This document shows positions 20,224 to 37,516 of a stretch of DNA of 38,073 nucleotides, one piece after another (position 1 is the stretch's first letter; each line of letters begins with the position of its first letter). Below the pieces are notes generated by a model. It did no database searches. It was not told the origin of the DNA and saw only the letters and a program-made list of their open reading frames with translations. The DNA comes from Armatimonadota bacterium (GTDB lineage: Bacteria > Bacteroidota > Ignavibacteria > OLB7). The stretch is from assembly GCA_020850315.1 (NCBI GenBank), contig JADZEY010000122.1, forward strand, positions 1-38,073, written 5' to 3'. A program made the translations under genes and the position numbers.

Positions 20224-21582
20224 ATGAAACTACTACAATATGGATGGAGCCTGTTCATGGTATGTTCTTTCTGTGCATCCGTACAGATAATGGCACAGAC
20301 AAGAGAATGGAAAGTTCAAAAAATAGTGGAGCGGGGAATATCGTGCATTGCCTGTTTAGATGAGCAACATTGCGTGTTTAGTGGGCAAGAAACACAGTAT
20401 GATGACACGTACATTTTTCAAACAGTAGATGGAGGAAAAACGTGGAGAAAAATTTATGCTGATACAGGGATTTTTCCAAAACGAGCATTGCCGTTGCATA
20501 GCCTTGCGTGGATTTCGCCAGATGTGATTGTCGCCAGTGCCGACAGTAGCTATATTATCCGCTCGGTGGATGGCGGAAAAACATGGACGAAAAACCAAAT
20601 TTATGATGGATTTTATTATGCAAAACCAATGTATTTTTGCGACAGTCTTCATGGAGTTGTATTTGAAGACAAGGAGATAGCGAATGAGGAAAGTAGCCAC
20701 CCATTAATAACATCGGATGGTGGAGCAACATGGCAACATATACCGGGACCAAAAGAACCGATAGAATGGAGCCAAACGGTAATTCAGACCGGTGACTGCA
20801 TTGCCCCTGGAAAATATATTGGATATACACCGAAATTATCAGAGTACGCAATTAGCAGAACAACGGATTACGGAAAAACATGGGATCGTATGTTTAATTC
20901 ATTTTCGCTCCCTAATGGCACAGCATGGTATGGAAATTTTTTCTTTCTGGATAGTATGAATGGGTGGTTCACGCTTCCTGGAAAATTTCAAAAAGGTTAT
21001 GGCTATCCAATGGTCATTGCTCGAACGCAAAATGCTGGTAAAACTTGGGATGTAGTTTTCCAGGACACGTTGCCGATGAGATTAGGAGGGTTCCAAGCAA
21101 TAGCTTTTACTGATTCGCTGCATGGGATTGGGACAACAAGCGGGCGTATATGCCGCACCACTGATGGCGGAGCCTCATGGAGTGTTGATAGCGTTCTACT
21201 GGAAAAAGGTTCTGTAACGCTTGTAGCGCAGATGAAGCAAGAACCGCACGTAGTTACTGGCGGCGGGGGATTGATAGCCTATTTATCTGAAGTAAGCAGT
21301 GCCGAGCAACCACCACCAGCAAGCAAGGGTATTGGGGAAATTGTGGTGCGAAGAATAGGTGAGTATCTGGAAATAAATTTCGCAAGTGAACATGCAACGC
21401 CAGTGCAAGTATGGGGTGATGACCTACAGGGGCAGCGAGTAATAACCGAGCGAACGATAGCGGGTGACCCAGGAAAGGGGAAAATTCGGATAGATATTGG
21501 CGACTTACCATCTGGGGTCTATTTCATCACGGTACAGCAGGGAAAGGAGCAAAGAACCGAAGGGGTGCAAATAGTACGGTAA
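20224..21582 (+). CDS. Secreted Asp-box (BNR/Ycf48-like) beta-propeller with T9SS-like C-terminal domain
   Basis: A 452-residue exported protein with a signal peptide ending near SVQIMAQ. Six Asp-box motifs are visible, at about residues 70, 117, 160, 217, 275 and 315 (TVDGGKTW, SVDGGKTW, TSDGGATW, TTDYGKTW, TQNAGKTW, TTDGGASW). These motifs build a six- or seven-bladed propeller as in sialidases and Ycf48-like proteins. No sialidase catalytic residues were identified, so a binding or scaffold role is likelier. The last 80 residues (EIVVRRIGEYLEINF to LPSGVYFITV, ending VQIVR) resemble a T9SS sorting domain. The gene is AT-rich like its upstream neighbour. Confidence 0.85.
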   Translation: MKLLQYGWSLFMVCSFCASVQIMAQTREWKVQKIVERGISCIACLDEQHCVFSGQETQYDDTYIFQTVDGGKTWRKIYADTGIFPKRALPLHSLAWISPDVIVASADSSYIIRSVDGGKTWTKNQIYDGFYYAKPMYFCDSLHGVVFEDKEIANEESSHPLITSDGGATWQHIPGPKEPIEWSQTVIQTGDCIAPGKYIGYTPKLSEYAISRTTDYGKTWDRMFNSFSLPNGTAWYGNFFFLDSMNGWFTLPGKFQKGYGYPMVIARTQNAGKTWDVVFQDTLPMRLGGFQAIAFTDSLHGIGTTSGRICRTTDGGASWSVDSVLLEKGSVTLVAQMKQEPHVVTGGGGLIAYLSEVSSAEQPPPASKGIGEIVVRRIGEYLEINFASEHATPVQVWGDDLQGQRVITERTIAGDPGKGKIRIDIGDLPSGVYFITVQQGKEQRTEGVQIVR

Positions 21583-21591
21583 TGAACAACA

Positions 21592-21621
21592 GAACGGGCT
21601 TGGCATTTGCCAAGCCCGTTC
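21592..21621. terminator. Hairpin between convergent genes, possible bidirectional terminator
   Basis: GAACGGGCTTGGC (21592-21604) and GCCAAGCCCGTTC (21609-21621) are exact reverse complements with a 4-base loop. The stem starts 9 bases after the Asp-box stop codon. The nearest T tract (eight T) lies about 20 bases further on the plus strand, so the element is not a textbook terminator, but its place between convergent genes suits one. Confidence 0.65.
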
Positions 21622-21686: not shown

Positions 21687-24600
21687 TCACCGCACCACTA
21701 CCACTGGCGTTGCAGACCACCCGTAATCGCTTTCCATTACCAGTTGGTAAGTTCCGCTGGGAAGATCGCCAATGGGTATCTGCAGATAGTGCGTCCCAGC
21801 GGCAATCACCTGTGGCGCGGTGCGTGCGTGGATGGATCCATCGTGCGCCACAAATCGGAACCGGACGGTGGCCCAATCGGCGGCCACGATTTGTGCCTGC
21901 ACTTGGTCACGGGCTGGCTGCGGGGCAATTTTCACCAAGCGAGGTTGGGCCACAAACCGCAACCCCGCATCCCAGCAGTTGCCCAACATTGTGAAGTTCC
22001 CATTAACGGTGTCAGCCGCCACATTCCAAGCATTCCAAGTGAACCAGTTGAACCGTATCGGTGTTGTTTTCCGGTCACCAAACATTGCCGTGCAGAGGAG
22101 CGTTGCCAACGTGTCGGAGGTTGCATCTGCCAATCGCCCCACAAGCTCCACGGTGGCATCACCGGTTCGGGGATCAATGGTTTTCTGAATCACGGCCCCC
22201 GCAACAAGGCTGTCGAACCGGAGCAACGCGGTGCTGAAGCTGATGCTGGTGCGGAAGGTGTCGGGGGCTATCCGGTCGAACGCTGTGCGGTCGGCAATCG
22301 CCATCACAATCGGAATTCGCACGGCTTGGCCAACGTAGGCCGATGTTTCGGGAAGGCTTACTGTTGTTGTGGTTCGCTCCCCCGATTCTCCGCTGGCATG
22401 AATGGTGGCCACAACGCCGCACCTCCCTTCAGCCAGCGTCAGTTTCTGGCTGAATTGCCCGGCGGTGGTTGGAAGAAATCGCACGTTCAGCAGTGAGGTC
22501 TGCCCGGGCAAAGGGTTGGGCGGAACTGCACTGGTGATCTGGAACTCACCAGCCGTCACTGGAATATCCCAGCTAATTGCCGTGGTTCCGGTGTTCACCG
22601 CACGGATGGCGACATCGCTTGGTGTGTTGGTCGGGCGGTTTCCCGCAGCAACGATGCTATCCAGCAAAACAAAGCTGATGAACTGGCGATTGGCGTGCAG
22701 CCGAACAGTATCCGGACTGTTAGGCGCATTGCTGCTCAGTATCAGCGTCGCTTGCTTGATTCCCACCGAACCGGGCCAGAACCGCACAACCCCCGAACGC
22801 TTCTCCCCAACCGGAATCCGCAACGGCAACGGCTCTTCAAATCGGAAATTTCCTTCGGGATCGTTCGTGATGTTGGCTGCGTCAATCACCAATTCTGCCC
22901 CGCCGTTGTTCGCAATCTCCATTGCCGCAACCCGCTGCGTGTCGGCAGCGCACCAGAGCGTGTCGAACGTCGGTGGGGTGATGGCCGCTATCGGCTGGTT
23001 TCCAGCAGCGGCCAACGCCACGATTGCCGCACCGCCACAGTTTGGTTGATACGCAAAGGCAATGGCCGCGCTGAATGTTGTGTTGAACGGAGCCACCAGC
23101 AACCGAACATGAAGCTGAACCGAATCCCCCGGCGCGATGCTGCGCGGCAATTGCCCGGCAAGCAGCTTGAACCACGACCCATCGTTCCCACTGATTACTC
23201 CATCCTGCACCGTCACCGGAATTGTTCCGCGATTCCACAAGGTCACAAACGTATCCACTGGCGCGGCTCCGGCCCGGAAGATGATGCTGGGAGCTTGCGG
23301 CGAAAGCATGATGGAGTCGCGCTGGCCGCTCAGAAGAATATCCGCCGGGCTGGTGGGGTCGTTGGAAACCACACGCAGCGTCGCGCTCTTGGCTCCAAAC
23401 GTTGCCGGGGCCAGCCGCACCACAACCTGAACCGAATCCCCGGGCAGAACCGTGACCAGACCGCCCGCAGTGGGAACGCTAACCAGTTGGAAACCTTCAT
23501 TGTTGCCAACAAGATCAATCGCGGTGATTGTTAGCCCCATCGCCCCGGCGTTCCGCAACTGCACAACGGTGTCGTGCGGGGTTGCTGTGCAAGCAATGGT
23601 GGGGAAGGTGATTGGGGCTATCGTACCCAGTGTCGGAATTGCCCCGCTCCGCCCGGTGATGATGGTGCTGGCGGTTCCGCACCACGCCGGAAGCGTGAAC
23701 CGAAGCTCCGCACTGGAGGCTTGGCCCGGCTGCGGGAAGTAGCGAATCAGAAGCGTCAGGCACTCCCCAGGAGCCAACTGGAAATCGCCGCCACCGCTGG
23801 CAAGCTGGAACGGGCCATCGCTTGGGATCAGCTCTGCTTGGCCACGCAGCGTGTCGGCTCCGGTGTTGCAGATGCTTTGGGTGATAGTGGTGTCAAATCG
23901 GGTTGTCCCGTCCGGCTGGTTCCCCATGTCAATCACGCTGTGGTGGGTGAACTGGCAGGGCTGAATCCCAACGCCGAAGATGCTGGCAGTGTCGCGCGCG
24001 CCGCAGCTTCCGGCAACCACCAGTCGGGCGCGAATGGTGTCGCTTCGGGTGGGGCCAAAGCGGAGTTGAAGTGGCAGATATTCCCCGGGCGCAAGATTTC
24101 TGGGCAACCCCGATTGCACCACGCTGAGCATTGCTGCATCGGGACCAATCGCCCAGACCGAATCCACCCGAAGAATTTGGGCGCCGGGGTTGTGGAGCGC
24201 GTTTGGAAAATCCGTCTGGCCGAACTGGTTTACAATCACTGTCCCAACCGATCCGGTTGATCCTTCCAACAGTGCAATCGGCTGGGGGGCAACGTGGAAG
24301 TAGCTTCTGGAGGAATCGCGAAGCTGTTCAATGGGAAGATCAATGGCCCTGACGCGATGGTTGTTCCGGTCGCAGAAGTAAAGGCGGTTATCGCGCACAA
24401 CGGGGGAGGTGGGATAGTTCATCTGGGCAGATACTGGGCCTCCGTTGTCGCCGCTGAATCCTGGCGTTCCGTTTCCGGCAATGGTGGTGATGATTCCGGT
24501 CTGAAGATCAACGCGGCGGATGCGGTTGTTCCCCACATCGGTGATGTAGGCAAACCGCCCGGCCACAGCAATCCCCGATGGGTGATCCAATCGCGCCGCA

Positions 24601-26852
24601 GTGGCGGGGCCTCCATCGCCACCAAATCCGCCAACGCCTCCGTCGGCGGTTCCCGCAAAAATTATTGCTTCCCCTGTGGTAAGGTTCACACGGCGGACAA
24701 TGTTTCCGGCGGTCTCCACCACAAACAGGTGATCGCCTTGCAATGCTAACGCCGTTGGGTTTGCCAGCCGCAGGCTTCGCGCAGCGGTGGAATCCCCGGG
24801 AAGCATCGGGCCAGCAACCGTGGTGATGATGCGTGTCTGCATATCAACCGCCCGCACGCGATCAATTCCGTCCGAGCCGAACAGCGTGGGGCGTAGCCCC
24901 GGCCCAATGTTCCCCAAAACCAGATTCTGCGGCGATCCGAAGGTTGCTTGTAGCGCATTGCCGCCATCGCCGCCGTTCCCCGGCTGGCCGTTTCCGGCAA
25001 GGCTGGTGATTACTCCGTTGCGGCGGTCAATTGTTCGGATCCGGTGGTTCCCGGCATCGGCAATGTAGATGCTTTTTGCATCGGCAATCGCATGGTTCGG
25101 ATTGCGAAGCTGCGCAAGGGTGGCCAATCCGCCGTCGCCGCCGTATCCCGATTGCGTGGTTCCGGCAATGGTGGTAATCACTCCGGTTGGAAGGTGTACC
25201 TGCCGGATTTTGTGCGTCCCTTCTTCGGTAATCAGCATGATGCTATCGGCAATGGAAAGCCCAACCGGCCCCAAAATTTTGCTCTGCAGCGCGGCAATGC
25301 CATCGCCGCCGTTCCCCCCGCCAGCCACTGTTGTGATAATCGAACGCGAGTTGGGAATGGTGGAGACACGAACGCGATACGCGCCAACGGTTGGTGGTTT
25401 CCAGAGGTAGGAGTAGCCTTGCACTGAGGTGATGGTTCGCCAGATGCTGTCGGCTCCGCAATATTCCAACTTCACCGGTGTTCCCGCCGGAACGCCGGAC
25501 CAAAGGATCAGCACCGAATCGCACGGGGTGAACGATTCGCCGCCGGTGGGGCTCAGCAGCCGAAGCTCACCCGTTGGTTGCGGCGTTGCGGTTCCCCCCA
25601 CAACAACCACTGGCAAGCTTGGGCAAGGGAGCGTGGCAAATGTCACAGTTCCGGTGTCGGCGGCGGCGGCGTTGGTTGGCGCGTAGCTGATGCTGACCGT
25701 TCGGCTGCTATCGGGAGGCAAGGCAAATGGCGGGGGCGCGCCCCCCCAATCGGTGACGCTGAATGGTTTTCCGGGAAGGGTCTGGGCGGCGGTAATCATC
25801 ACCGTGTCGTGGCGGGCAGTGATGCGAATGGAAAGCTGGCGTTGCCCGCTTGGTGGAACGGTTCCGAACCAGAGTGAGTTGTTGCTGATCTCAAGCAAGC
25901 CATGTTGGACGGCGGGGGCAAGGTAGTTGCGGCGCTGTTGCAGCTTCAGCGGAAGCAGTTTCATCACAAGGTCACGCTGGTGCTGAATTGCACCGCAGCC
26001 AATGGGGCTAACCCACTGAATCGTGCAGGGGCGATATCCATGCACGGCCAACGCAACCCCACGCATTGCCCCCTTCGACTCTTCTTCGCTGGCGATCATC
26101 TCGAACCACTCCCCTCCGGTTTGCTCAACAATTCGGCGCATTTCAAACGGGATTTTTGCCCGGATGATAGCGGCGTACACCTCAATCTTCCGTGCCTTTG
26201 CCAGCGTGATGATGGAGTCGGCATCAGACTTCCGAATGCTGGATCCATCGGTGACAACCACAATCATTTTGCGGGTGGTTGCGGGCGTTGTTCCGAATGA
26301 TGCGATTGCCCCGGCGGCATCGTCCAACAACGCGTTTGCGGTGTTGGTTCCGCCGGTGTTGAACAGCGATCCCAACGTGGTAGTGATCGGTTCGGCAGTG
26401 CTGATGAAACCGGTCTCGGTGGCAGGGTTGTTGTGGTAGGAGGTCAGCCCAATGGTGTTCCCGGTGGAGAAATCGAAGCTGTTGGCGAAGTCAATCAGCC
26501 CGGCAATGGCCAATGTCAGTTTCCCATTCCCCATGGATCCGCTGCGGTCGGCAAGCAACCGAATAGCAGTTTTTTGCGGCGGAACTTGTGGCGGGCAGCT
26601 GGGGTCCAGCACCGTTGCAACCGGCGCGCCGTTCTCGGTGATCTCAAAATCCTGCGGGGTAAGCCCCGATAGCAAGTTCCCGTTGTTATCCAGCGCAACA
26701 AACCGCGCAGTAACAAGGGGGAACGCGGTGATATCAATATCGAACAGGTCTATCCGTTGTGCGGTGGCCGGTTGTGGCAGCAAGGCCAGCAACCAGCTAA
26801 TCAATCCGCACAACAACGGCATCAGGTTCCGAACGTTGGGAGCTGTGAGCAT
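21687..26852 (-). CDS. Giant secreted VWA-NHL-ASH-cohesin-like protein, paralogue C
   Basis: The ATG at 26852 gives 1,721 residues; the open frame reaches to 26903, but this start gives a normal signal peptide (PLLCGLISWLLALLPQPATAQ) and a length equal to paralogue B. By domain, in open-frame numbering minus 17: beta-sandwich to about 90; VWA domain about 95-273 with complete MIDAS (D-R-S-G-S, T in GGT, TDG); an Ig-like region; an NHL-type propeller about 504-845 with repeated ITTVAG and NHRIR/NNRIRRVDL; about six ASH/choice-of-anchor-D sandwiches to 1,488; a cohesin-like module about 1,495-1,633; and a T9SS type A-like domain (PQPARDQ to LPSGTYQLVM, ending VVVVR). It is probably a surface or secreted adhesin. 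Function is inferred from domains only. Confidence 0.85.
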   Translation of the reverse strand: MLTAPNVRNLMPLLCGLISWLLALLPQPATAQRIDLFDIDITAFPLVTARFVALDNNGNLLSGLTPQDFEITENGAPVATVLDPSCPPQVPPQKTAIRLLADRSGSMGNGKLTLAIAGLIDFANSFDFSTGNTIGLTSYHNNPATETGFISTAEPITTTLGSLFNTGGTNTANALLDDAAGAIASFGTTPATTRKMIVVVTDGSSIRKSDADSIITLAKARKIEVYAAIIRAKIPFEMRRIVEQTGGEWFEMIASEEESKGAMRGVALAVHGYRPCTIQWVSPIGCGAIQHQRDLVMKLLPLKLQQRRNYLAPAVQHGLLEISNNSLWFGTVPPSGQRQLSIRITARHDTVMITAAQTLPGKPFSVTDWGGAPPPFALPPDSSRTVSISYAPTNAAAADTGTVTFATLPCPSLPVVVVGGTATPQPTGELRLLSPTGGESFTPCDSVLILWSGVPAGTPVKLEYCGADSIWRTITSVQGYSYLWKPPTVGAYRVRVSTIPNSRSIITTVAGGGNGGDGIAALQSKILGPVGLSIADSIMLITEEGTHKIRQVHLPTGVITTIAGTTQSGYGGDGGLATLAQLRNPNHAIADAKSIYIADAGNHRIRTIDRRNGVITSLAGNGQPGNGGDGGNALQATFGSPQNLVLGNIGPGLRPTLFGSDGIDRVRAVDMQTRIITTVAGPMLPGDSTAARSLRLANPTALALQGDHLFVVETAGNIVRRVNLTTGEAIIFAGTADGGVGGFGGDGGPATAARLDHPSGIAVAGRFAYITDVGNNRIRRVDLQTGIITTIAGNGTPGFSGDNGGPVSAQMNYPTSPVVRDNRLYFCDRNNHRVRAIDLPIEQLRDSSRSYFHVAPQPIALLEGSTGSVGTVIVNQFGQTDFPNALHNPGAQILRVDSVWAIGPDAAMLSVVQSGLPRNLAPGEYLPLQLRFGPTRSDTIRARLVVAGSCGARDTASIFGVGIQPCQFTHHSVIDMGNQPDGTTRFDTTITQSICNTGADTLRGQAELIPSDGPFQLASGGGDFQLAPGECLTLLIRYFPQPGQASSAELRFTLPAWCGTASTIITGRSGAIPTLGTIAPITFPTIACTATPHDTVVQLRNAGAMGLTITAIDLVGNNEGFQLVSVPTAGGLVTVLPGDSVQVVVRLAPATFGAKSATLRVVSNDPTSPADILLSGQRDSIMLSPQAPSIIFRAGAAPVDTFVTLWNRGTIPVTVQDGVISGNDGSWFKLLAGQLPRSIAPGDSVQLHVRLLVAPFNTTFSAAIAFAYQPNCGGAAIVALAAAGNQPIAAITPPTFDTLWCAADTQRVAAMEIANNGGAELVIDAANITNDPEGNFRFEEPLPLRIPVGEKRSGVVRFWPGSVGIKQATLILSSNAPNSPDTVRLHANRQFISFVLLDSIVAAGNRPTNTPSDVAIRAVNTGTTAISWDIPVTAGEFQITSAVPPNPLPGQTSLLNVRFLPTTAGQFSQKLTLAEGRCGVVATIHASGESGERTTTTVSLPETSAYVGQAVRIPIVMAIADRTAFDRIAPDTFRTSISFSTALLRFDSLVAGAVIQKTIDPRTGDATVELVGRLADATSDTLATLLCTAMFGDRKTTPIRFNWFTWNAWNVAADTVNGNFTMLGNCWDAGLRFVAQPRLVKIAPQPARDQVQAQIVAADWATVRFRFVAHDGSIHARTAPQVIAAGTHYLQIPIGDLPSGTYQLVMESDYGWSATPVVVVR

Positions 26853-26903
26853 GAATGCTGTTGGGAGAGAAGAATGTAGGAGAGAGAAAAACCGGTTGCT
26901 CAT

Positions 26904-27093
26904 CTATAAGCTACCGAGCAGAATGCTTGCACGATGTCGGGGGGGCTACGACCTCTCTTCTTTCCTATCTCTGTGTCTTCTGTGTCTCTGTGGTTTTTCC
27001 TTCCTTCCAGCGAAGAAGAGAATGAACCACAGAGGCACAGAGAACACAGAGGGAAGAGAGAGAGTATTGCGGAGGGTACGCATTCTCCATCTA
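26904..27093. other. Gap between paralogues B and C with CACAGAG inverted repeat
   Basis: The 190-base gap contains two arms related to the widespread AACCACAGAGrCACAGAG-type repeat. The first (about 26969-26996) is inverted with respect to the second (about 27024-27052). The arms differ at a few positions and are separated by about 27 bases, so a long stem of about 28 bp is possible. No gene is supported here; open frames with NHRxTENTEG-like strings are translations of the repeat. Confidence 0.75.
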
Positions 27094-30000
27094 TCACCGC
27101 GCCACCACTACCGGCACTGCCGACCAGCCGTAGTCGGTTTCCATCAGCAACTGGTATGCGCCGCTGGGCAGGCTGCTTACCGGAAGAACCAAGCGGTGAG
27201 TTCCTGCAGAAAGAACCTGTGGCTTGGCTTGTTGTTGGATAGTGCCATCGGAGGCAACCAGATGGAACCGAACGGTGGCCCAGTCGGCAGCCTCAATCTC
27301 TATCATCAGTTGGTCGCGTGCGGGCTGCGGGACAATTTTCACCAGGCGCGGTTGCGCCACAAACCGCAGGCCAGCTTCCCAGCAATCCCCCAGGATCGCA
27401 AACGCCCCGTTGATGGTGTCGGCAGCAACGTTCGGCTTGTTCCAAGCAAACGATTGGAAGGTGAGGGGAGTAATCTTCCGGTCGCCGAGCAGTGCGGTAG
27501 CAAGAATGGTGGCAAGGGTGTCGGTGTTGCGGTAGCTTCCGGCGATGGTGAGGGTGATATCGCCAGTGGCATTGTTGCGGGTTTGGTTCAGCAACTGCGC
27601 CCCGATGACGGAATCGCACCGGAGGATAGCGTTGCTGAAGGAGATGGTGGTTGCAAAGGAATCGGGCGCAATGGCATGGAAAGCGGCAGGGTCGTCAATC
27701 TTTACGGTGATGGGAAGCAGGACTTGCTGGCCAACATACGCCGACGCAACCGGAAGCATCACTGTGGTGGATGTTGGCGCAGCGGCCTCACCCTCCATTT
27801 GTAGCGTTGCTGCCACACCGCATTGCTCCTCAACCAGCCGTGGCCCCCCCGCAAACGTTCCGCTACTGGTTGGGTGGAACCGGACGGCAACGATTGCCGA
27901 CTGCCCGGGCAGCAGCGGGTTTGGCGTTGCCGAAAGAATGGTGAACGGCCCATCGCTCTGCGGAAGTTGCCAGCGGATCACCGATGTTCCGGTGTTCGTG
28001 ACGGCGATGGTTGTGTCAATCGCCACGTTCGGTTGCCGCTGCCCGAACTTCAACTGGTTGGTGGCTGGTTGGAACTGAATCTGCTGCTTCCGTCCGCTCA
28101 AGCTGATCTCCATCGTGCTGTCGGTGCTGTTGTTCGGCAGCCGCAGCCGTGCGTTCCAGCTGCCGGGGCCCGGCGGATGGAAGGTGATGGCCAGTATCTG
28201 CTGCCCGCCGGGGGGTATCTCAATCGGGAATTGCTGGCTGATACTGAACGCTCCGTCGGGATCATCCAACAACTGATGCGAGCGGATGAGCAGCGTGGCT
28301 CCGCCATTGTTCCGCAGCGTGATGCTTCCCACCGTTGCCGAATCACCGTTGCAAACAAGCTCCCGAAACAACGGTGTTGTTGCTGATAGCTGGGGAAGGC
28401 TTCCGCTTGCGGAAAGCTGGATGGAGAGCGGTGGCTGGCCGCAGTCGGGAGCGTAGCGCACGGCCACCGCAGCGCGGTAGGTGGTGTCGGCAGGGAATTG
28501 CAGCAATCGCACAGTAAGCTGCGCTGTCCCCCCGGGAAGAATCGCCCGGGGCGACTGCCCAGATTGAAGGGCAAACATACTGCTGTCGCGTCCGGTGATG
28601 GTGGCTTCGGCCAGCGTCACGGCAACGGTTCCGCTGTTTTGCAGAACAAGCACGGTGTCCTTCGGAACTGATTGATCGGTAGTTGGGAAGGTGATGGAGT
28701 TCACGTTGCTGGCAACACCAACCGCTGCGCGAACGCCATGCAGTTGGATGCTATCGGGGCTGGTGGGGGCATCGGATAGCACCTGCAACGTAGCTGAATC
28801 GCTTCCGGCCCCTGCGGGCTGGTAGCGAACCTGAACAGGGTACACCTCACCCGGCTTCAACAACATTGGTGTGGCTACCGAAGGGCTTTGCGAGCGGAGT
28901 TGGAACTGGCTTCCGCCAAGCAGCTGCAACCCGGTGATGGCCAGGGGAAGCGTCCCGGTGTTTCGCAGCTGGATGGTGGTGTCGCGCGGGTCGCCATCGC
29001 AAAGCAGCGTTCCAAATCCCACACTGCTCACGGCCGAAAGTTGCTGCAACGCAAAGCCGTTTCCAACCAGTACTGTTCGCGCTTGGCCGCAGTAGCTGGG
29101 GACCCCGTACAAAAGCTCGGCCATCACTGCCCCCTGTTCTGTTGGGGCGTAGCGGATGGTGATTGCGTGACATTGGCCTGGATCCAGCACAAAACTCCCT
29201 CCACCGGAAACGATGCTGAACCCGTTCCCTTCGGGGAACATCTGGATGTTCCCTTGCAGCGGCGCGTTTCCGTTGTTGCAGATGCTGGATTCAATCACGG
29301 TGTCCATCGGGGCAATCCCGGTTTGGCGGTCTGGGAACTCTAGAATTTGGATGGCCGCAAACCCGCACGGTTCAGCACCGGTTCCCCGAAGCTGGATAGT
29401 GTCAGCCGCGCCGCACGTTCCGGCGATTACCAGAGTTGCGTTTAGCGGACCAACCCGTTGCGGCACAAAGCTGATGGAAAGGGGAAGGCATTGCTGTGGG
29501 GGGATTGCATTGCCAGTTGGTGGGGTGATAATGTTGAACGAAAGGCGGTCGGGGCCGCTAATGGTTGCCGATGTGACGCTGACCGAAAGCGCGCCCGGAT
29601 TGCAGAGCGCGCCAGCAATGGTGGTGTCGTGCCGAAGCCCGCTGGCCCACGTGCCAAGTTGCAGCGTGCGGTTGTTGGTTCCCGGAAGAATCGCCAGCCG
29701 TAGCCGTTCAACGGTGAAGGCTTGCGAGGAATCGGACTGGGCATCAATCGCAAGATCAATCACCCGAATGCGGTGGTTGTTGACATCGCAGAAATAGAGG
29801 CGGTTCCCCACAATAAGCGGGCTGGTTGGAAGGTTCAGTTCGGCAAGCAGTGGCGAGCGGTCGTCGCCGCCGAATCCTGCGGTTCCGGTTCCGGCAATGG
29901 TGGTGATCGTCCCCGTCACCATATCAACACGGCGGATGCGGTGGTTGAACCCATCGGTGATGTAGGCATATCGCCCACTGACGGCAACCCCCGTTGGGTG

Positions 30001-32259
30001 ATAGAGTTGCGCCGATGTGGCCGGCCCTCCATCGCCGCTGAAACCAGGCGATCCGATCTTCCCATCGAAGGTCCCAGCCACGTGGGAAATTTTGCCAGTG
30101 CGCAGGTCAATCCGCCGGATGATATGGCCGTAGTATTCGGCAACGTACAGTTGCTGCCCCTCAAGATCAAGCCCCATTGGGGCAAGCAATCGGGTGCTTC
30201 GTGCCGATAGTGAGTCCCCTTGCTCAACCAGTCCAGCAACGGTGGTGATGATCCCGGTTGCGGTGTTGACCGCACGGATGGATTGGCTCCCATCGCTAAA
30301 AAACAGGATAGGTTCCGGCGATGTTCCCCACAGCCCAACGGCCATTGCTTCCGGGGTGGTCAGCCGGGCAGCAATCGCTTTCCCTTCGTCGCCGGTGCGG
30401 CCTGGTGTTCCGGTTCCGGCAATCGTCCGGATGATCCCTGTTCCCGATTCAATCAATCGAATCCGGCTGTTCCCGTTGTCGGCAATAAAGATGTTTTGCC
30501 CAATTGCCAGCGCGTACCGGGGGTAGTTCAATGTGGCCGCAAGCGCTTGCCCTGCATCCCCGGAAAATCCTCGCGTTCCCTTCCCCGCAACGATTGTGCT
30601 GAACCCCGTTTGCAGGTTAATCTTCCGAATCTGATTCCCCCCAGCTTCAGCCACAAACAGCAGGCTGTCCCCTTGCAGGCTAAGGCCGTTGGGGCCGTTC
30701 AGCAGCAGCAGTTTTGCGAACGCATTCCCAACGGTCGAGCCGCCGCCGGCCACTGTGGTAATGGTTGAGCGTTCGGTGGCAACCGTGGAGACTTTCACCC
30801 GAAACTTCCCCTGCATGGGTGGCCGCCAGAAGTAGCGCAAGCCAGTGGTGGTGGTGATGTTCCGCCACACGCCATCGCTTCCCGAATAACTGATAACGAT
30901 TGGCGTTACCGGCGAAACCCCCGTCCACTCAATCAACACCGAATCGCAACCAGTAAGCACTTCGGCCCCGGTTGGGCTCACCAACTTCAATCCTTCGGTT
31001 CCAAACGCCGTGACAGGGCCGGCCAGCAGATAGAGCGGGTTGCTGGGGCAGGGGAGCGTGGCAAACGTGAGCCGGGCCGAGTGGTAGTGGCGATCCAACG
31101 GAGAGAACCGAAGCCTCAGCACGCGGCGTTGGCCCGGTTGCAACACAAACGGAGGTGGCGCGCCCCTCCAATCGGCAACGGAGAACGGCTCGCCGGCGGA
31201 GATAGTTGTTCCGGTTAGCGTGATTGAGTCGTTGACGGCGGTGATCGTCACGTTCAGGTCGCTGCTGTCGCCGGGGGGAACATCGCCAAACCAGAAGGTG
31301 GATTGCGTGAAGACCAGTTTGGCCGATAGCGTCGGTGCCGAAAGGTAGCTGGTTCCCTCGGTGAGTTGCAGTGGCCGCAACGTCACTGCCGCAGTGATTG
31401 TTTGGGCGGTGTCACCACACTCCTGCTGGCTAAGCCATTGCAACGTGCAGGGGCTGAAGCTGCGTGTCCACAGGGAGATGGTTTGCATCACTGCGGTCAT
31501 CTGGTCGTCGCTGGTGATCAGGTCGTAAAACTGGCCGCCGGTTTCTTTGCAGATGCGTTGAATTTCCAACGATGCTGGAACCCCAAGAATCACCATGTGG
31601 ATTTCCACCCGCTCGGCGTTTGCTGCGGCGATGATGGAGTCCGCTTGGTGGGGAAGCACATCCGATGGTAAGGCATCGGTGACCATCACCAACACCCGCC
31701 GTCGTGGTGATTGCAACTGGCTAAGGAGCGGTATCCCCCCAGCGATTGGGTTCAGAAATGCGTTGGTGACATTAGTTCCGCCGAAGGCTTGAATGGAGTT
31801 CACAGCGGTGCGCAGCGGTTGCGCGGTAGTCCTGAAGGGGCTGTACAGAAGGGGGTTCAGATTGAACGCCGTTAGCCCAACCGAGCCACCCGCCGCAAAC
31901 GGGTAGTTGTTGATGAACGTCGTCAGCCCCTGCTTCATCCGTCTGAGTTTATCCCCTTCCATCGAGCCGCTTCGGTCCCCCACCAGCAGAACGTTCGCCA
32001 GCGAATCATCATCAATCGGCGGGCAGTTTGTGGCGATTACTTGCTTCACAGGCCGCCCGTTCTCCAGCACCTGAAAGTTGCTGGCCGAAAGTGAAAGAAG
32101 TGGATTCCCCACAGCATCCACCGCTGTGTAGCGTGCCGATACCAACGGGTAGTTCCGGGCATCAACATCCGACAAACGGAAGTACTGCGACTGCGCGGCG
32201 GAAACGGCCGCAACCAGCAGCAGCGATGAAACAAGGAGGCGCGTAGGTAGAAATGGCAT
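27094..32259 (-). CDS. Giant secreted VWA-NHL-ASH-cohesin-like protein, paralogue B
   Basis: The ATG at 32259 gives 1,721 residues and a good signal peptide (LLVSSLLLVAAVSAAQSQ); a longer frame to 32331 would lack one. The domain order equals that of paralogue C. MIDAS D95-R-S-G-S99 and TDA replace TDG at the third metal-site position, where the Asp is kept. The NHL propeller shows ISTIVAG-like, FNHRIRRVDMVTGTITTIAG and NNHRIRVIDL units. The C-terminus has a cohesin-like module (SAYVGQQVLLPITVKIDDP to LLGDRKITPLTF), then PQPARDQ and LPSGAYQLLM, ending VVVAR. The cohesin-like segment is nearly the same as in paralogue A at DNA level. The likely order of transcription is A, B, C, with gaps of 103 and 241 bases. 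Confidence 0.86.
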   Translation of the reverse strand: MPFLPTRLLVSSLLLVAAVSAAQSQYFRLSDVDARNYPLVSARYTAVDAVGNPLLSLSASNFQVLENGRPVKQVIATNCPPIDDDSLANVLLVGDRSGSMEGDKLRRMKQGLTTFINNYPFAAGGSVGLTAFNLNPLLYSPFRTTAQPLRTAVNSIQAFGGTNVTNAFLNPIAGGIPLLSQLQSPRRRVLVMVTDALPSDVLPHQADSIIAAANAERVEIHMVILGVPASLEIQRICKETGGQFYDLITSDDQMTAVMQTISLWTRSFSPCTLQWLSQQECGDTAQTITAAVTLRPLQLTEGTSYLSAPTLSAKLVFTQSTFWFGDVPPGDSSDLNVTITAVNDSITLTGTTISAGEPFSVADWRGAPPPFVLQPGQRRVLRLRFSPLDRHYHSARLTFATLPCPSNPLYLLAGPVTAFGTEGLKLVSPTGAEVLTGCDSVLIEWTGVSPVTPIVISYSGSDGVWRNITTTTGLRYFWRPPMQGKFRVKVSTVATERSTITTVAGGGSTVGNAFAKLLLLNGPNGLSLQGDSLLFVAEAGGNQIRKINLQTGFSTIVAGKGTRGFSGDAGQALAATLNYPRYALAIGQNIFIADNGNSRIRLIESGTGIIRTIAGTGTPGRTGDEGKAIAARLTTPEAMAVGLWGTSPEPILFFSDGSQSIRAVNTATGIITTVAGLVEQGDSLSARSTRLLAPMGLDLEGQQLYVAEYYGHIIRRIDLRTGKISHVAGTFDGKIGSPGFSGDGGPATSAQLYHPTGVAVSGRYAYITDGFNHRIRRVDMVTGTITTIAGTGTAGFGGDDRSPLLAELNLPTSPLIVGNRLYFCDVNNHRIRVIDLAIDAQSDSSQAFTVERLRLAILPGTNNRTLQLGTWASGLRHDTTIAGALCNPGALSVSVTSATISGPDRLSFNIITPPTGNAIPPQQCLPLSISFVPQRVGPLNATLVIAGTCGAADTIQLRGTGAEPCGFAAIQILEFPDRQTGIAPMDTVIESSICNNGNAPLQGNIQMFPEGNGFSIVSGGGSFVLDPGQCHAITIRYAPTEQGAVMAELLYGVPSYCGQARTVLVGNGFALQQLSAVSSVGFGTLLCDGDPRDTTIQLRNTGTLPLAITGLQLLGGSQFQLRSQSPSVATPMLLKPGEVYPVQVRYQPAGAGSDSATLQVLSDAPTSPDSIQLHGVRAAVGVASNVNSITFPTTDQSVPKDTVLVLQNSGTVAVTLAEATITGRDSSMFALQSGQSPRAILPGGTAQLTVRLLQFPADTTYRAAVAVRYAPDCGQPPLSIQLSASGSLPQLSATTPLFRELVCNGDSATVGSITLRNNGGATLLIRSHQLLDDPDGAFSISQQFPIEIPPGGQQILAITFHPPGPGSWNARLRLPNNSTDSTMEISLSGRKQQIQFQPATNQLKFGQRQPNVAIDTTIAVTNTGTSVIRWQLPQSDGPFTILSATPNPLLPGQSAIVAVRFHPTSSGTFAGGPRLVEEQCGVAATLQMEGEAAAPTSTTVMLPVASAYVGQQVLLPITVKIDDPAAFHAIAPDSFATTISFSNAILRCDSVIGAQLLNQTRNNATGDITLTIAGSYRNTDTLATILATALLGDRKITPLTFQSFAWNKPNVAADTINGAFAILGDCWEAGLRFVAQPRLVKIVPQPARDQLMIEIEAADWATVRFHLVASDGTIQQQAKPQVLSAGTHRLVLPVSSLPSGAYQLLMETDYGWSAVPVVVAR
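27589..27762 (-). repeat. Near-identical segment shared by paralogues B and A (B copy)
   Basis: This segment of about 174 bases in the cohesin-like module agrees with 32859-33031 at about 95 percent of positions by eye, including silent codon positions. Other parts of the same two genes are much less similar. This pattern fits recent gene conversion. Confidence 0.75.
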
Positions 32260-32288
32260 ATCCGAACCCCAAGAACCTGTGAAGAATT

Positions 32289-32349
32289 TGCGGATGCAAC
32301 GGAAAAAACTGCGGATGCAAAACGTGGGCATTGGCCTGCAATCGCAGGC
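32289..32349. repeat. Short direct repeats and small hairpin between paralogues A and B
   Basis: TGCGGATGCAA occurs at 32289-32299 and 32310-32320. GCCTGC-AATC-GCAGGC (about 32334-32349) can form a 6-bp stem just downstream of the paralogue A stop. No T tract follows, so it is a weak terminator candidate. The promoter of paralogue B could also lie in this 103-base gap, but none was recognised. Confidence 0.4.
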
Positions 32350-32362
32350 ATCGGCAACGGCC

Positions 32363-35300
32363 TTACCGAACTACCACCAGCGGCACTGATAGCCAGCCGT
32401 AGTCGGTTGCAATCATCAACCAGTGAGTGCCCGATGCTACGTCCCGAACATCAAGCGAAAGGTGATGACTGCCAGCGGCCAGGACGTGTTCCCCCAGGAA
32501 CTGCTCCATCCGGCCATCCAGCCCAACCACACTGAACCGAAGCGTGTTCCATTCCGGCAGCTGAAGTTCAACCGCCACGTGGTCGCTTGCTGGCTGTGGG
32601 GAGAGCTTCAGCAAACGGGGCTGGGCCACAAAGCGCAAGCCAGCTTCCCAGCAATCCCCCAGGATCGCAAAGGTTCCGTTGGTGGTGTCGGCAGCAACAT
32701 TCCACTTGTTCCAAGCAAACGATTGGAAGGTGAGTGGGGTGATCTTCCGGTCGCCCAACAACGCCGTGCCGAGCAGTGTTGCCAGCGTGTCGCTGGTACG
32801 GTAGGCTCCGGCGATCACCAGAGTGAGTTGCCCAGTGGCCTTGTCGCGTGTTTGGCTCAGCAACTGCGCCCCGATGACGGAATCGCACCGGAGGATGGCG
32901 TTGCTGAAGGAGATAGTGGTTGCAAAGGAATCGGGAGCAATGGCATGGAAGGCGGCAGGATCATCAATCTTTACGGTGATGGGAAGCAGGACTTGCTCCC
33001 CAACATATGCCGACGCAACCGGAAGCATCACCTGCGTTGTGGTTTGCCGTCCCGACCGCCCAGAAACCAGAAGCGGAAGCGATTGATCGCACAGTTTTTC
33101 GGCCACCGGAATGGTTTCGGTAGCAATGCCGTCAGCAGCCGGAGCAAATCGCACAGTAAGCAGCGAGCGTTGGCCGGGGGGAGCGATTGGCGGCTCGGCA
33201 GAAATAATGGAGAATGGCCCAACCGAGCGTGGCACATTCCATTCAATCGGGAAGGTCCCGGTGTTGGTTGCCGTGAACGTTTGCTGGGAAGCTCCGCCGC
33301 TGGGGATTGCTCCAAAATCGAGCGATGGCGTGGAGGTAGTGAAGCGAACCGTCTCCTTAATCCCCACCAGCCGCACCTTGATTGCGGTGTCGGCTCCGTT
33401 GTTCACCAGCACCGCGTGGGCTTGCTTCACCCCGTTGGCGCGTGGGCGGAATTGCGCGGTGATTGTTTGCACAGCAAGCGGCGCAAGAACAATCGGCGGC
33501 GTGGCCAGCAGCCTGAACTCACCCTCGGGATCATCTTCAATTCTCACCTCCGTAATCGTCAGCGGGTCGCCCCCTTCGTTCGTTATCTGGAACGTCCCTT
33601 CCGTCAGTGTGTCGCGGTCGCAGACCAGCTGGCGAAGGTTCGGTGTGGTGGCCGTCAGCAATGGGCGTGCGCCCAGCGTGTTCAGCGTCACCTGCAACGT
33701 ATCCGGTCCGCAGCTTGGGCTGAAGGAAAGGCGCAGCATGGCCTGGAACAGCGACCCCGCCGAACGCCCCAATGCCCGCACCGCAAACCGTGCGGAGTCG
33801 CCGGGAAGAATGGTGCGCGGTGTTTGTCCGGGGATCAGCAGAAACTTGTCGGCATCGTTCCCAACAATTCCGGCATCGGTGATGGAGATTGGCAACGTTC
33901 CGCTGTTTCGGATCACCACAAACGAATCAACCGGGAAGCTGGCAGCGGGATGAGCAAAGGTGAGTGAGCTTTGTTCGGCGATTGCGCCAATCGTGTCGCG
34001 CTGGCCGGTGAGCGGGATGTTGAACGGGCTTGCTGGGGCGTTGGATACCACCCGAAGCACCGCAGCTTTTGCGCCAACCGTTGCCGGATTGAACCGCACT
34101 CGCAGCGTGTCGTTTCCGCCGGCGGGGATCACCATCGGCGCGATTGCTGTTGGTGAGTTCAGCACGGAAAATCCTTGGTCGGGGGGAAGTAGCTCGGTGC
34201 TGGTGATGCTTAACGGAACATCACCCACGTTCCGCAGCACCAGCGCGGTGTCGTGCGGGGCGGCGGTGCAAACGGTTGCGGGGAATCCAACGCCAGCAAC
34301 GGCGGCAAGCTGCTGCGGCGCAAGCCCGCGCCCAAGCAGTGTGGTGGAAGCCGTCCCGCATTCGGTGGGGATGTTGTACTCTAACTCTGCCGTCACCCTT
34401 CCCGAAGAGAGCGGTGCAAACCTCACCTGCACATTCAAGCATCCCCCGGGCGGCAGCGTAAACTTTCCATCGCCAGAAAGCAGCCGGAACGCACCGTTCG
34501 GCGGGTTCAACTCCAACCGTCCTGAAATTGGCGCGGCCCCGGTATTGCAGAGCGGAACCGTCAGCACAGTATCCTTTGCTTGGGCATTCAACACAACTTC
34601 GCCAAGCTGGGCAAGTGGGGTGAACGCCAAGCCGCAAGGGGAAAGCCCTTCGCCACGAAGTGCAAGTGTATCGGCAATTCCGCAAGGGCCAAAGATCACC
34701 AGCGTTGCCGAAAGCATTCCCACACGTTGCGGAAGGAACCGGAGCTCGATGGTGCGGCATTCGTTCGGATTCAGCGGGGTCGAGGTCAACCCGGAAACCC
34801 CAGCGAACGAAGCCGAGTCGGGGCCGATAATTGCAAAAGAGTCAATGGCAGTGGTGACGGATCCAACGTTGCAGATGGTTTGTGGCAGCAGCGTGTCGCG
34901 CCCGCTGCCGGCGGCTTGGCGGCCAAAATCAACCGTGTGATTTGCGGTCCAGGGGCGCAGCAGAATGGAAGGACGCACAACCGTGAAGGCTTGGCTGTTG
35001 CTGTCAACCCCTGCATCGGTTGAAAGTTGGAATGCCCGAACCCTGCCGTTGCGAACATCGCAGAAATAGAGTCTGTTGTTATGCACCACTGGCGACATCG
35101 GGAAGTCAATTTTGGCATTGACGGCAAGCCTTCCTTCGCCGTCGTAGCCCGCAATTCCTGTTCCGGCCAATACTCTGGTTGCTCCTGTCACCAGGTTCAC
35201 CCGAAGGATTCGGTTGTTGCTGGCATCGGTGATAAACAGGCTTTGCCCGGCAACGTCCACCCCCGTTGGGGAACGTAGTTGCCATGTGCTAATCGGCTTG

Positions 35301-37516
35301 CTGCCGGGGTCGGTGCTTACGCCAACAAGGTCCTGGATTGTGTTGGTGGCCAGATCGGCACGGCGAACAAGGTTGTTTGCCGATTCAGCAATAAACATCT
35401 GGCTTCCGCGCATCGTGATTCCAATCGGAGCAAGCAGATAGGCCCCGCGTGCGGTTCCCCGTTCCAGCAAAATCCGGTTCCCGGCTTCGGTGGAAATTGT
35501 CCCGTTAGAAAGATTGATTGCGCGGATACGGTAGCTTTCGTCGGAGAAGAACAGCGATGGGGTTGCATTGGGGCCAAGCGTACCAAAAGTGAAACTCAAC
35601 GGGCCGTAGATCATCGCTTGCCGTGCGTCGCCGCCATCGCCGCTGAACCCTGAGATGCCGATACCAGCCGCCGTGCTGATTTCCCCCGTGGCCAAATCTA
35701 CCATGCGGATGCGGTGGTTATCGTGGTCGGCAATGTACAGCCTGTCGTTCATGGCAAGCAGCCCCGCCGGCCCGGCTAATCGCGCCACGGTTGCCGGGCC
35801 GCCATCGCCCCCGTTGCCCGGGATACCGATGCCGGCAACGGTGTTGATAATCCCTGTCTGAAGGTCCACCACCCGCACCCGATGCCCCCCCGATTCGGCG
35901 ATATACAGGCGGTTGTTGCTGATGGAGATTCCCGTTGGGGAATGGAGTTCAGCATTGGTTGCTTGGCCCAAATCACCACCGAAGCCCCCGCCAGCAACGG
36001 TGAACAGGGGGGAAGAGGTGAAATCATCTGCCGAGACACGAATACGGTACGATCCGCTGGTTGGCGGAGCCCACTTCAGTTCCCCACCGGTGGCGGTGTC
36101 AATAAAATGCCACTTCTTATCGCTGCCGAAATACTCCACCCACACCTTCTGGTCGGGGGGAACTCCTGCCCATTGAATCAGGATGCTATCGCAGCCGGAA
36201 TAGGTTGCGCCGCTAATCGGAGACAGCAACTGAATCTGGCCATCCTGCGTCGGCTGGCCGCTTCCGCCAGCAAGGAAAATATCGTTGGCCGGGCAGGGCT
36301 GCGTTGCAAGCCGCAGCACCGAGCTGTAGGTTCCGGCGCGGTCGGCATCGAATCGGACACTGAGCACCCGTTGCTCTCCATCCTGCAAGGTGAACGGCGG
36401 CGTGGTCCCCCCCCAATCGGTGATGGTGAAGGGTTGTCCAGAGGTGATCGTTGCCCCTTCCACCGTGAACGGGCCATGCTTGGCGGTGATGGTGCATTGC
36501 AGCACCCGCCCAGCTCCTTCTGGGTATCCGCCAAACCAGAGGAATGCAGGTTGCGATTCCAGCAGCGCAATGTTTTCGCTGGGGGCTATGTATTGGACCT
36601 CAGCTTTTTTGCCGTACGGAATCAGCCGGATTTCGGCGGTGCGGAAAATGCTTTCAGTTCCGCAAACTGGCTGCACTTTCCAGCGGAGCGTGCAAGGGCC
36701 AAAGCCCTGGTTGCGGATTGCGATTGTGCGGTAAACCCCCTCCATCTCCGCACTGCTACTGACGTTGCTGTACCACGTCCCCCCAGTCTGCTCGGCAATC
36801 TGGCGCAGCGTTGCGGGGATCGTTAGCCCGATAGTGATAACGTGAATCTCAATGCCTAACGCGGTTGCGCGGTTGATGATTTCGGTGGTTTTGGTCAGTG
36901 TTCCTGGCAATCCATCGGTAAGGAACACCAAGATTTTGCGGTGGTTGCTGGGGCGTTCGGCCAGCATTGCAATGCCACCAACAAGCGCGTCCAGAAACGC
37001 TGGATTGTAGTCGGTTCCGCCGTCGGGGCTCATGGTGTCAATGGCGGCGATAAGCGGAGAGGAGCTGGTGCGGAAATCGGAAAGGATGGAGGGTTTGCTG
37101 TTGAAGGCGGTCAGCGCCACCGCGCTCCCTTGCTGGAAATCGAACGTTGTCAGAAATGCACGGGTTCCCCCTTTCACGATGTCCAGCCGTGTGATGCCCG
37201 ACTCCGTTTCTTCGCTCATCGAGCCGCTGCGGTCGTTCACCAGCACCACGCTTGCTGGGCCAGGGTTCACCCCAGGTGAGCATTGCGATTGCAGCACGGC
37301 GGTGGCTTGGACTCCGTTATCGGTGATGGCAAAATCATCGGTGGAGAGATTGGTGATGGGGCTTCCGCCAGCGTCCAGCGCAAGGTATCGTGCGGAGATT
37401 TCAGGGTACGCCGAAACATCCACGCCAAACACCGAAAAGGATTGCGCGAAAAGTGAGGAAACAAGGGAAAGCAGCAGCAGCAGAGAAGCCCAAGCGCAGC
37501 GTAACATGGGGGGCAT
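32363..37516 (-). CDS. Giant secreted VWA-NHL-ASH-cohesin-like protein, paralogue A
   Basis: The first gene of the array encodes 1,717 residues. The ATG at 37516 has an AAGG run upstream at a fair Shine-Dalgarno distance; an ATG three codons later is an alternative. The signal peptide is LLLLLSLVSSLFAQ. MIDAS is D95-R-S-G-S99 with T168 (DGGT) and D201 (LTDG). The NHL propeller lies at about residues 500-820 (GHRVRVVDLQTG, NHRIRMVDLATG, NNRILRVNLVTG). A run of ASH/choice-of-anchor-D sandwiches, a cohesin-like module (SAYVGEQVLLPITVKIDDP) and a C-terminal sorting-like domain (PQPASDHV, ending PLVVVR) follow. It shares its cohesin-like DNA with paralogue B but its C-terminal domain is more divergent. 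Function inferred only. Confidence 0.86.
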   Translation of the reverse strand: MPPMLRCAWASLLLLLSLVSSLFAQSFSVFGVDVSAYPEISARYLALDAGGSPITNLSTDDFAITDNGVQATAVLQSQCSPGVNPGPASVVLVNDRSGSMSEETESGITRLDIVKGGTRAFLTTFDFQQGSAVALTAFNSKPSILSDFRTSSSPLIAAIDTMSPDGGTDYNPAFLDALVGGIAMLAERPSNHRKILVFLTDGLPGTLTKTTEIINRATALGIEIHVITIGLTIPATLRQIAEQTGGTWYSNVSSSAEMEGVYRTIAIRNQGFGPCTLRWKVQPVCGTESIFRTAEIRLIPYGKKAEVQYIAPSENIALLESQPAFLWFGGYPEGAGRVLQCTITAKHGPFTVEGATITSGQPFTITDWGGTTPPFTLQDGEQRVLSVRFDADRAGTYSSVLRLATQPCPANDIFLAGGSGQPTQDGQIQLLSPISGATYSGCDSILIQWAGVPPDQKVWVEYFGSDKKWHFIDTATGGELKWAPPTSGSYRIRVSADDFTSSPLFTVAGGGFGGDLGQATNAELHSPTGISISNNRLYIAESGGHRVRVVDLQTGIINTVAGIGIPGNGGDGGPATVARLAGPAGLLAMNDRLYIADHDNHRIRMVDLATGEISTAAGIGISGFSGDGGDARQAMIYGPLSFTFGTLGPNATPSLFFSDESYRIRAINLSNGTISTEAGNRILLERGTARGAYLLAPIGITMRGSQMFIAESANNLVRRADLATNTIQDLVGVSTDPGSKPISTWQLRSPTGVDVAGQSLFITDASNNRILRVNLVTGATRVLAGTGIAGYDGEGRLAVNAKIDFPMSPVVHNNRLYFCDVRNGRVRAFQLSTDAGVDSNSQAFTVVRPSILLRPWTANHTVDFGRQAAGSGRDTLLPQTICNVGSVTTAIDSFAIIGPDSASFAGVSGLTSTPLNPNECRTIELRFLPQRVGMLSATLVIFGPCGIADTLALRGEGLSPCGLAFTPLAQLGEVVLNAQAKDTVLTVPLCNTGAAPISGRLELNPPNGAFRLLSGDGKFTLPPGGCLNVQVRFAPLSSGRVTAELEYNIPTECGTASTTLLGRGLAPQQLAAVAGVGFPATVCTAAPHDTALVLRNVGDVPLSITSTELLPPDQGFSVLNSPTAIAPMVIPAGGNDTLRVRFNPATVGAKAAVLRVVSNAPASPFNIPLTGQRDTIGAIAEQSSLTFAHPAASFPVDSFVVIRNSGTLPISITDAGIVGNDADKFLLIPGQTPRTILPGDSARFAVRALGRSAGSLFQAMLRLSFSPSCGPDTLQVTLNTLGARPLLTATTPNLRQLVCDRDTLTEGTFQITNEGGDPLTITEVRIEDDPEGEFRLLATPPIVLAPLAVQTITAQFRPRANGVKQAHAVLVNNGADTAIKVRLVGIKETVRFTTSTPSLDFGAIPSGGASQQTFTATNTGTFPIEWNVPRSVGPFSIISAEPPIAPPGQRSLLTVRFAPAADGIATETIPVAEKLCDQSLPLLVSGRSGRQTTTQVMLPVASAYVGEQVLLPITVKIDDPAAFHAIAPDSFATTISFSNAILRCDSVIGAQLLSQTRDKATGQLTLVIAGAYRTSDTLATLLGTALLGDRKITPLTFQSFAWNKWNVAADTTNGTFAILGDCWEAGLRFVAQPRLLKLSPQPASDHVAVELQLPEWNTLRFSVVGLDGRMEQFLGEHVLAAGSHHLSLDVRDVASGTHWLMIATDYGWLSVPLVVVR
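32859..33031 (-). repeat. Near-identical segment shared by paralogues A and B (A copy)
   Basis: Partner of 27589-27762. The DNA differs at only about nine positions by eye. Just outside on either side the two genes diverge quickly, so the conserved tract has fairly sharp edges inside the cohesin-like module. Confidence 0.75.

Follow-up and report, generated by a model that had tools for sequence, protein, structure and literature searches.

A tandem array of three predicted surface proteins and the recurrence of their VWA-ASH-Ig head across one bacterial class

The window analysed here is the whole stretch of 38,073 nucleotides, and it is contig C122 of a genome of 4.24 Mb that is 99.8% complete, from an uncultured Chlorobiota bacterium. 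Among named genomes, a Chlorobiota MAG is the closest relative found. Three adjacent genes, called A, B and C below, are found on its minus strand from 21687 to 37516, where their open reading frames occupy 15.8 kb together. What do these three very long proteins do, and are they peculiar to this genome? An initial annotation, made from the DNA letters without database searches, had described three same-strand paralogues of about 1,720 residues taking up more than 15 kb, and the open reading frames do lie at that place and on that strand. Gene C (32363-37516, 1717 aa) is transcribed first of the three. Gene B (27094-32331) and gene A (21687-26903) have longest frames of 1745 and 1738 aa, respectively. 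It is probable that the true starts of B and A are internal Met codons (M25 at 32259 in B and M28 in A), since the resulting "MP" start is common to C and to the B protein of a sister species. With these starts, all three proteins are about 1710-1720 aa in length. The identity over the full length is 43% between A and B, 39% between A and C, and 43% between B and C. Thus, the common domain order described below results from common descent and not from chance.

Domain order and predicted export of the three proteins

The Pfam and NCBIfam profile matches agree on one domain order for A, B, and C (VWA, ASH, NHL, then repeated ASH/choice-of-anchor D domains), and an identical order in all three had also been read from motifs in the initial annotation. 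In full, each protein starts with a signal peptide, a VWA domain, an ASH domain, and an Ig-like domain, which are followed by a six-bladed NHL propeller. Next come about six ASH domains and a cohesin-like domain, and the chain ends in a C-terminal domain of the type IX secretion system (T9SS) type. In gene C (all features on the minus strand), the signal peptide was assigned by eye to residues 1-24 (37445-37516), with Gln next. The VWA domain covers residues 90-261 (36734-37249) with MIDAS residues D95, S97, S99, T168, and D201. The first ASH-like sandwich (about residues 314-420; 36257-36577) contains a cysteine residue, Cys408, which is invariant among the homologues, and the Ig-like domain (about residues 426-497; 36026-36241) marks the end of a conserved head. 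The six-bladed propeller (about residues 503-832; 35021-36010) occupies what will be described as an exchangeable slot. It is followed by the stalk of about six ASH/choice-of-anchor D domains (residues 850-1487; 33056-34969), the cohesin-like domain (residues 1488-1632; 32621-33055), and the T9SS-type C-terminal domain (residues 1633-1717; 32366-32620). In gene B, a VWA domain with an intact MIDAS was located by profile and alignment at 31522-31992, the NHL propeller by Pfam and alignment to C at 29752-30765 (about residues 523-860), and the cohesin-like and T9SS-type C-terminal domains by alignment to C at 27097-27786. The corresponding features of gene A, found in the same ways, lie at 26115-26558, 24342-25340 (about residues 522-854), and 21690-22382.

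How firm are the individual assignments? By eye, all three proteins have a hydrophobic N-terminus with an A-Q end, in keeping with the "Q-rule" for signal peptides of Bacteroidetes and some Chlorobi-related species (PMC5837995). The VWA domains match PF00092/PF13519 with E values from 3e-7 to 4e-13, and the DxSxS/T/D residues of the MIDAS are complete in A, B, and C, so that the profiles and the residues point to a VWA domain with an intact MIDAS. The many ASH/choice-of-anchor-D sandwiches are borne out by Pfam and NCBIfam; the ASH/Cep192_D4/HYDIN repeats are matched by the NCBIfam choice-of-anchor D model in six to seven stretches (E values from 1e-29 to 2e-42). The NHL and TEN_NHL profiles match all three proteins with E values as low as 7e-14. 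Residues 24-862 of C were modelled with AlphaFold2 from four sequences, at a mean pLDDT of 75. The N-terminal domain of the model is alpha/beta, and the model further contains beta-sandwiches and a propeller, which is predicted at a pLDDT of about 90 and has six blades by strand count. The closest fold match of this propeller is a bacterial teneurin-like protein (9ifo; Z 39.5, rmsd 2.2 over 320 residues with 39% identity); further NHL propellers match at Z values of about 30-39. Structure prediction, which had been proposed as a check on both folds, thus bears out the propeller, whereas the VWA call rests on the sequence profiles and the predicted secondary structure with no separate fold match. 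The match list from the fold search of the C head was filled by propellers.

The Pfam Cohesin model matches none of A, B, and C, and it matches three of the 14 members of the family to which their cohesin-like domain belongs. A profile made from the 14 members finds cohesins and cellulosome scaffold parts as its first eight matches in the PDB (E values from 1.3e-4 to 1.2), and the name given in the initial annotation is kept on this ground. The region of C with this domain (residues 1475-1631) is modelled at a pLDDT of about 30, and its predicted fold was therefore set aside.

Does the genome have the machinery for the predicted export? It encodes SprA (909.8 bits for both stretches together), three PorV-family proteins, and PorU (779.8 bits), all above the cut-offs, as well as at least 150 T9SS sorting domains of TIGR04183. 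Thus, the T9SS genes that the initial annotation had named as a check are present. TIGR04183, the curated type A model, gave no reported match to A, B, or C, and the single-copy orthologues in other genera score 21.8, 15.2, and 17.7 bits against its cut-off of 23. In a model of the last 243 residues of C, the last 86 residues or so are the only well-predicted part (pLDDT above 80) and form a seven-stranded sandwich. Its best fold matches include the C-terminal domains of mirolase (Z 10.7), PorU (10.4), and NucA (9.8), which are tied within one Z unit with other Ig-like sandwiches such as a domain of Vibrio GbpA (Z 10.6). The C-termini of A, B, and C are also homologous to other C-termini in the genome, for example at C68:3929-4456 and C114:8990-9184, which do score above the TIGR04183 cut-off. 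The fold match and this homology uphold the T9SS-type C-terminus, and export of A, B, and C by the T9SS is a prediction well supported by sequence and model.

Origin of the array and concerted evolution of B and C

The sister species, G004, has orthologues of C, B, and A with 87%, 85%, and 83% identity, respectively. Three genomes of two other genera (G001, G002, and G003) have single copies with 31-36% identity, and no flanking genes of these single-copy orthologues are shared with the window. In a phylogenetic tree, A, B, and C group without the single copies, C branches first, and the inner branches are all well supported; where the single copies attach is less certain, as long branches meet there. 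The grouping and the G004 orthologues of all three genes indicate that the array arose by tandem duplication within the genus, before the split of the two species.

The orthologues are under purifying selection: dN/dS between the sister species is 0.15 for C, 0.18 for B, and 0.20 for A (over 1037 codons). Diversifying selection was considered and rejected, because the windowed dN/dS is low throughout, with single windows up to about 0.5 and no variable patch; one window of 36 codons in the signal peptide has a dN/dS of about 1. A diversity-generating retroelement was also rejected, as neither this genome nor that of the sister species has a match to RVT_1. An RVT_1 match in G009, a genome with another array of this kind, is not on the array contig.

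Concerted evolution is seen at the C-terminal ends of B and C. A segment of 458 columns, which runs through the cohesin-like domain into the first part of the C-terminal domain (C residues 1496-1646), has 84.1% DNA identity between B and C against a background of 41-60% elsewhere, and its score was reached by none of 2000 codon-column shuffles. The conversion tract lies at 32579-33031 in gene C, with 84% DNA identity to B, and its partner at 27310-27762 in gene B (both on the minus strand). Over the 156 bases of this tract that are common to four genes, B and C are 94.2% identical, and their counterparts in the sister species, B4 and C4, are 99.4% identical, a provisional figure since the G004 contigs end inside the tract. 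Over the same bases, the identity between the species is 84.6% for B-B4 and 83.3% for C-C4. Thus, the paralogues within a genome resemble each other more than the orthologues do, which is the mark of gene conversion after the species split.

The G004 assembly contains a second A-like gene (L045, at C4 2-5083) that is 98% identical to A. It differs from A with a dS of about 0.1 over the first 1000 codons or so, has zero differences over some 600 codons (about 1020-1620), and has a diverged end. Either this contig belongs to a strain like the one studied here (G000) and was binned with G004, or the gene results from a recent transfer and recombination.

The head family and its exchangeable slot

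Is the array an isolated oddity, as it had first appeared? The region of C residues 26-495 (VWA-ASH-Ig, about 470 residues), hereafter the head, recurs across the class. The class was sampled with 148 genomes from 79 genera, and a profile of the head (A5; 19 sequences, 473 positions; matches at E up to 1e-30) is positive in 46 of the genomes and 26 of the genera; in one of these genomes (G098) only the VWA part is matched. The head often occurs several times per genome, with copy numbers that are lower bounds, as scoring covered no more than 10 candidates in each genome. In a sample of 395 genomes of the phylum, 36 of the 37 head-positive genomes belong to the class, and a full-length head was found in none of the sampled genomes outside it. 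The sole match out of the class (G251, C54:34137-36632) covers the first 297 positions or so, the VWA part, of the profile; it lies in a frame of 1605 aa with three VWA domains in tandem. Within this sample, the head is apparently restricted to one class, which is represented here mainly by draft genomes. Thus, the isolated-array picture has to be given up: the head is spread over the class, and the array represents an expansion, confined to the genus, of a gene present as a single copy in two other genera of the family. The MIDAS residues and four cysteine residues (Cys79, Cys275, Cys285, and Cys408) are invariant in all 25 aligned homologues, which come from several families of the class. 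The four cysteine residues may form disulphides.

The module directly after the head differs among the homologues. By Pfam, it is an NHL propeller in the array and its orthologues. A WD40 module occupies the slot in two further proteins of the window's genome and in proteins of G001, G002, G003, G147, G365, and G424, and an SBBP propeller in G028, G142, G058, G440, and G116; SBBP-like repeats were also seen by eye in L097, L098, L099, L101, and L104. An FGE-sulfatase module was found in G009 and, by reading, in G074, and a Fib_succ_major module in G097. For proteins of G055, G037, and G448, Pfam names no module in the slot. The slot after the conserved head is thus exchanged between unrelated folds. 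The anchors also vary: besides T9SS-type domains, G147 has an OmpA domain, and L075 possibly has an outer-membrane barrel, as assigned by eye.

Tandem pairs of head genes exist in G110, G103, G037, and G074. An independent array was found in G009, which belongs to another family of the class (L145 3337-15699). Its three head genes lie near one another and have FGE-sulfatase, WD40, and FGE-sulfatase modules in the slot, so that the slot differs even between adjacent genes. The last two head proteins and an intervening headless ASH protein of this locus have near-identical T9SS-type C-termini. In G097, the head gene (L149 5139-7264) is broken by undetermined residues, an assembly gap, after which the Fib_succ_major piece follows.

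Proposed function and comparison with known systems

The sequences and models make it rather probable that A, B, and C are fibrillar surface proteins of a single family, which may be adhesins or contact receptors. A "long cell-surface adhesin with a metal-dependent tip", as proposed in the initial annotation, is most likely the best reading; its domain calls and T9SS export stand, without the isolated setting. The proteins would cross the inner membrane via the signal peptide and the outer membrane via the T9SS, and the C-terminal domain would be recognised, and probably removed, by PorU, so that the protein would stay attached to the cell surface, with its head held away from the cell by the ASH stalk. 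If the C-terminal end is at the outer membrane, the MIDAS head would be at the tip, where a metal ion would mediate ligand binding by the VWA domain. The adjacent NHL propeller would offer a second binding face. Conservation of the head next to a module that is exchanged suggests that all heads have the same function, either to bind the same partner or to attach in the same way under force, with the ligand chosen by the slot.

In fibrillar adhesins, VWA ranks with the commonest adhesive domains, and Por_Secre_tail serves as one of the anchors (PMC8286594). Like A-C, these adhesins combine an adhesive domain with stalk domains in several copies, and some of those in Bacteroidetes have a Por_Secre_tail anchor. 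By the definition of at least one adhesive and at least one stalk domain, A-C would belong with them through the VWA domain, if the repeated ASH domains are taken as the stalk. They differ in the VWA-ASH-Ig head with its four fixed cysteine residues and in the exchangeable propeller or other module after it; the main text of the survey mentions neither propellers nor ASH (PMC8286594). Another surface MIDAS protein, the Bd0875-type adhesin of Bdellovibrio, acts at cell contact, and its MIDAS residues are required for normal prey entry (PMC11003981). In contrast to A-C, it is a lipoprotein only 378 residues long; it has a small beta domain and no propeller, stalk, or T9SS domain.

Could the proteins do something other than adhere? 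VWA domains serve also in non-adhesive complexes. The lack of a hot spot of diversifying selection in the head or the propeller counts against an adhesin, since a hot spot might be expected if the partner changes. A uniformly low dN/dS without a variable patch would suit an extracellular matrix or surface coat, in which the cohesin-like and ASH domains would bind partners on the same cell and the VWA domain and the propeller would hold the lattice. The presence of a cohesin-like domain and of several related proteins per genome is consistent with this idea, but a part with a fixed place in a lattice would not be expected to swap its slot among unrelated modules, and I regard a coat as unlikely. 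A force sensor resembling PilY1 is improbable to the same degree. PilY1, the tip protein of the type IVa pilus, is likewise secreted with an N-terminal VWA domain and a beta-propeller; it works in surface contact, and it couples the two domains and acts in surface sensing (PMC13190605, PMC8806160). By analogy, the surface VWA domain and propeller of A-C would report contact, and the four cysteine residues found around the VWA domain in all homologues would lock it mechanically. However, the PilY1 propeller is seven-bladed, whereas A-C have a six-bladed NHL propeller, an ASH stalk, and a T9SS-type C-terminus; PF05567, the C-terminal propeller of PilY1, is absent from A-C, for which Pfam gives NHL instead. 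Pfam also found no minor pilin genes among the neighbours in the window, which ends 557 bases upstream of gene C.

The least probable of the readings is that A-C are recognition parts in inter-bacterial conflict or kin discrimination, with an NHL propeller in common with teneurin-like toxins. The closest solved propeller is indeed that of the bacterial teneurin-like protein mentioned above, and such proteins have been described as putative surface-exposed or accessory toxins (PMC13018210). However, the likeness to teneurins and their bacterial relatives is confined to the NHL part; A-C have the VWA-ASH-Ig head instead and no FN-plug. No YD shell, toxin domain, or immunity-like neighbour was seen by Pfam in the window. 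NHL propellers are widespread, and the similarity does not show function.

With these results, a single odd array becomes part of a defined family that can be recognised by a testable signature, namely the MIDAS, the four cysteine residues, and the head of about 470 residues. The parts are of known kinds; the novelty lies in how they are combined, in the exchangeable slot, and in the fact that the family is apparently confined to one class. A limited literature search found no published description of the domain order of A-C or of the class-wide head, which is weak evidence. More tentatively, and with doubt slightly outweighing belief, the family may form a class-wide repertoire of modular receptors of swappable specificity, with a fixed MIDAS/four-Cys head, at least five slot modules, an ASH stalk, interchangeable anchors, and tandem arrays in which the anchor ends are converted while the heads and slots diverge. 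The swapping of modules, in some cases from one gene to its neighbour in an array, amounts to a natural experiment that bears on which part determines the binding specificity, and concerted anchor ends with divergent heads illustrate one way in which repertoires can grow.

In promoter and terminator scans of the array, the number of sites was not above that in shuffled sequence. A terminator-like hairpin of 13 pairs lies at 21592-21621, between gene A and a convergent gene, and is possibly the end of the array transcript. The convergent gene (20224-21582) encodes a protein of 452 aa with a BNR/Asp-box propeller, whose C-terminus scores 24.0 bits with TIGR04183 against the cut-off of 23 and which is predicted to be another T9SS-type secreted propeller. 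At 236-2659, the window also encodes a protein of 807 aa with LVIVD beta-propeller repeats and a CarboxypepD_reg-like domain.
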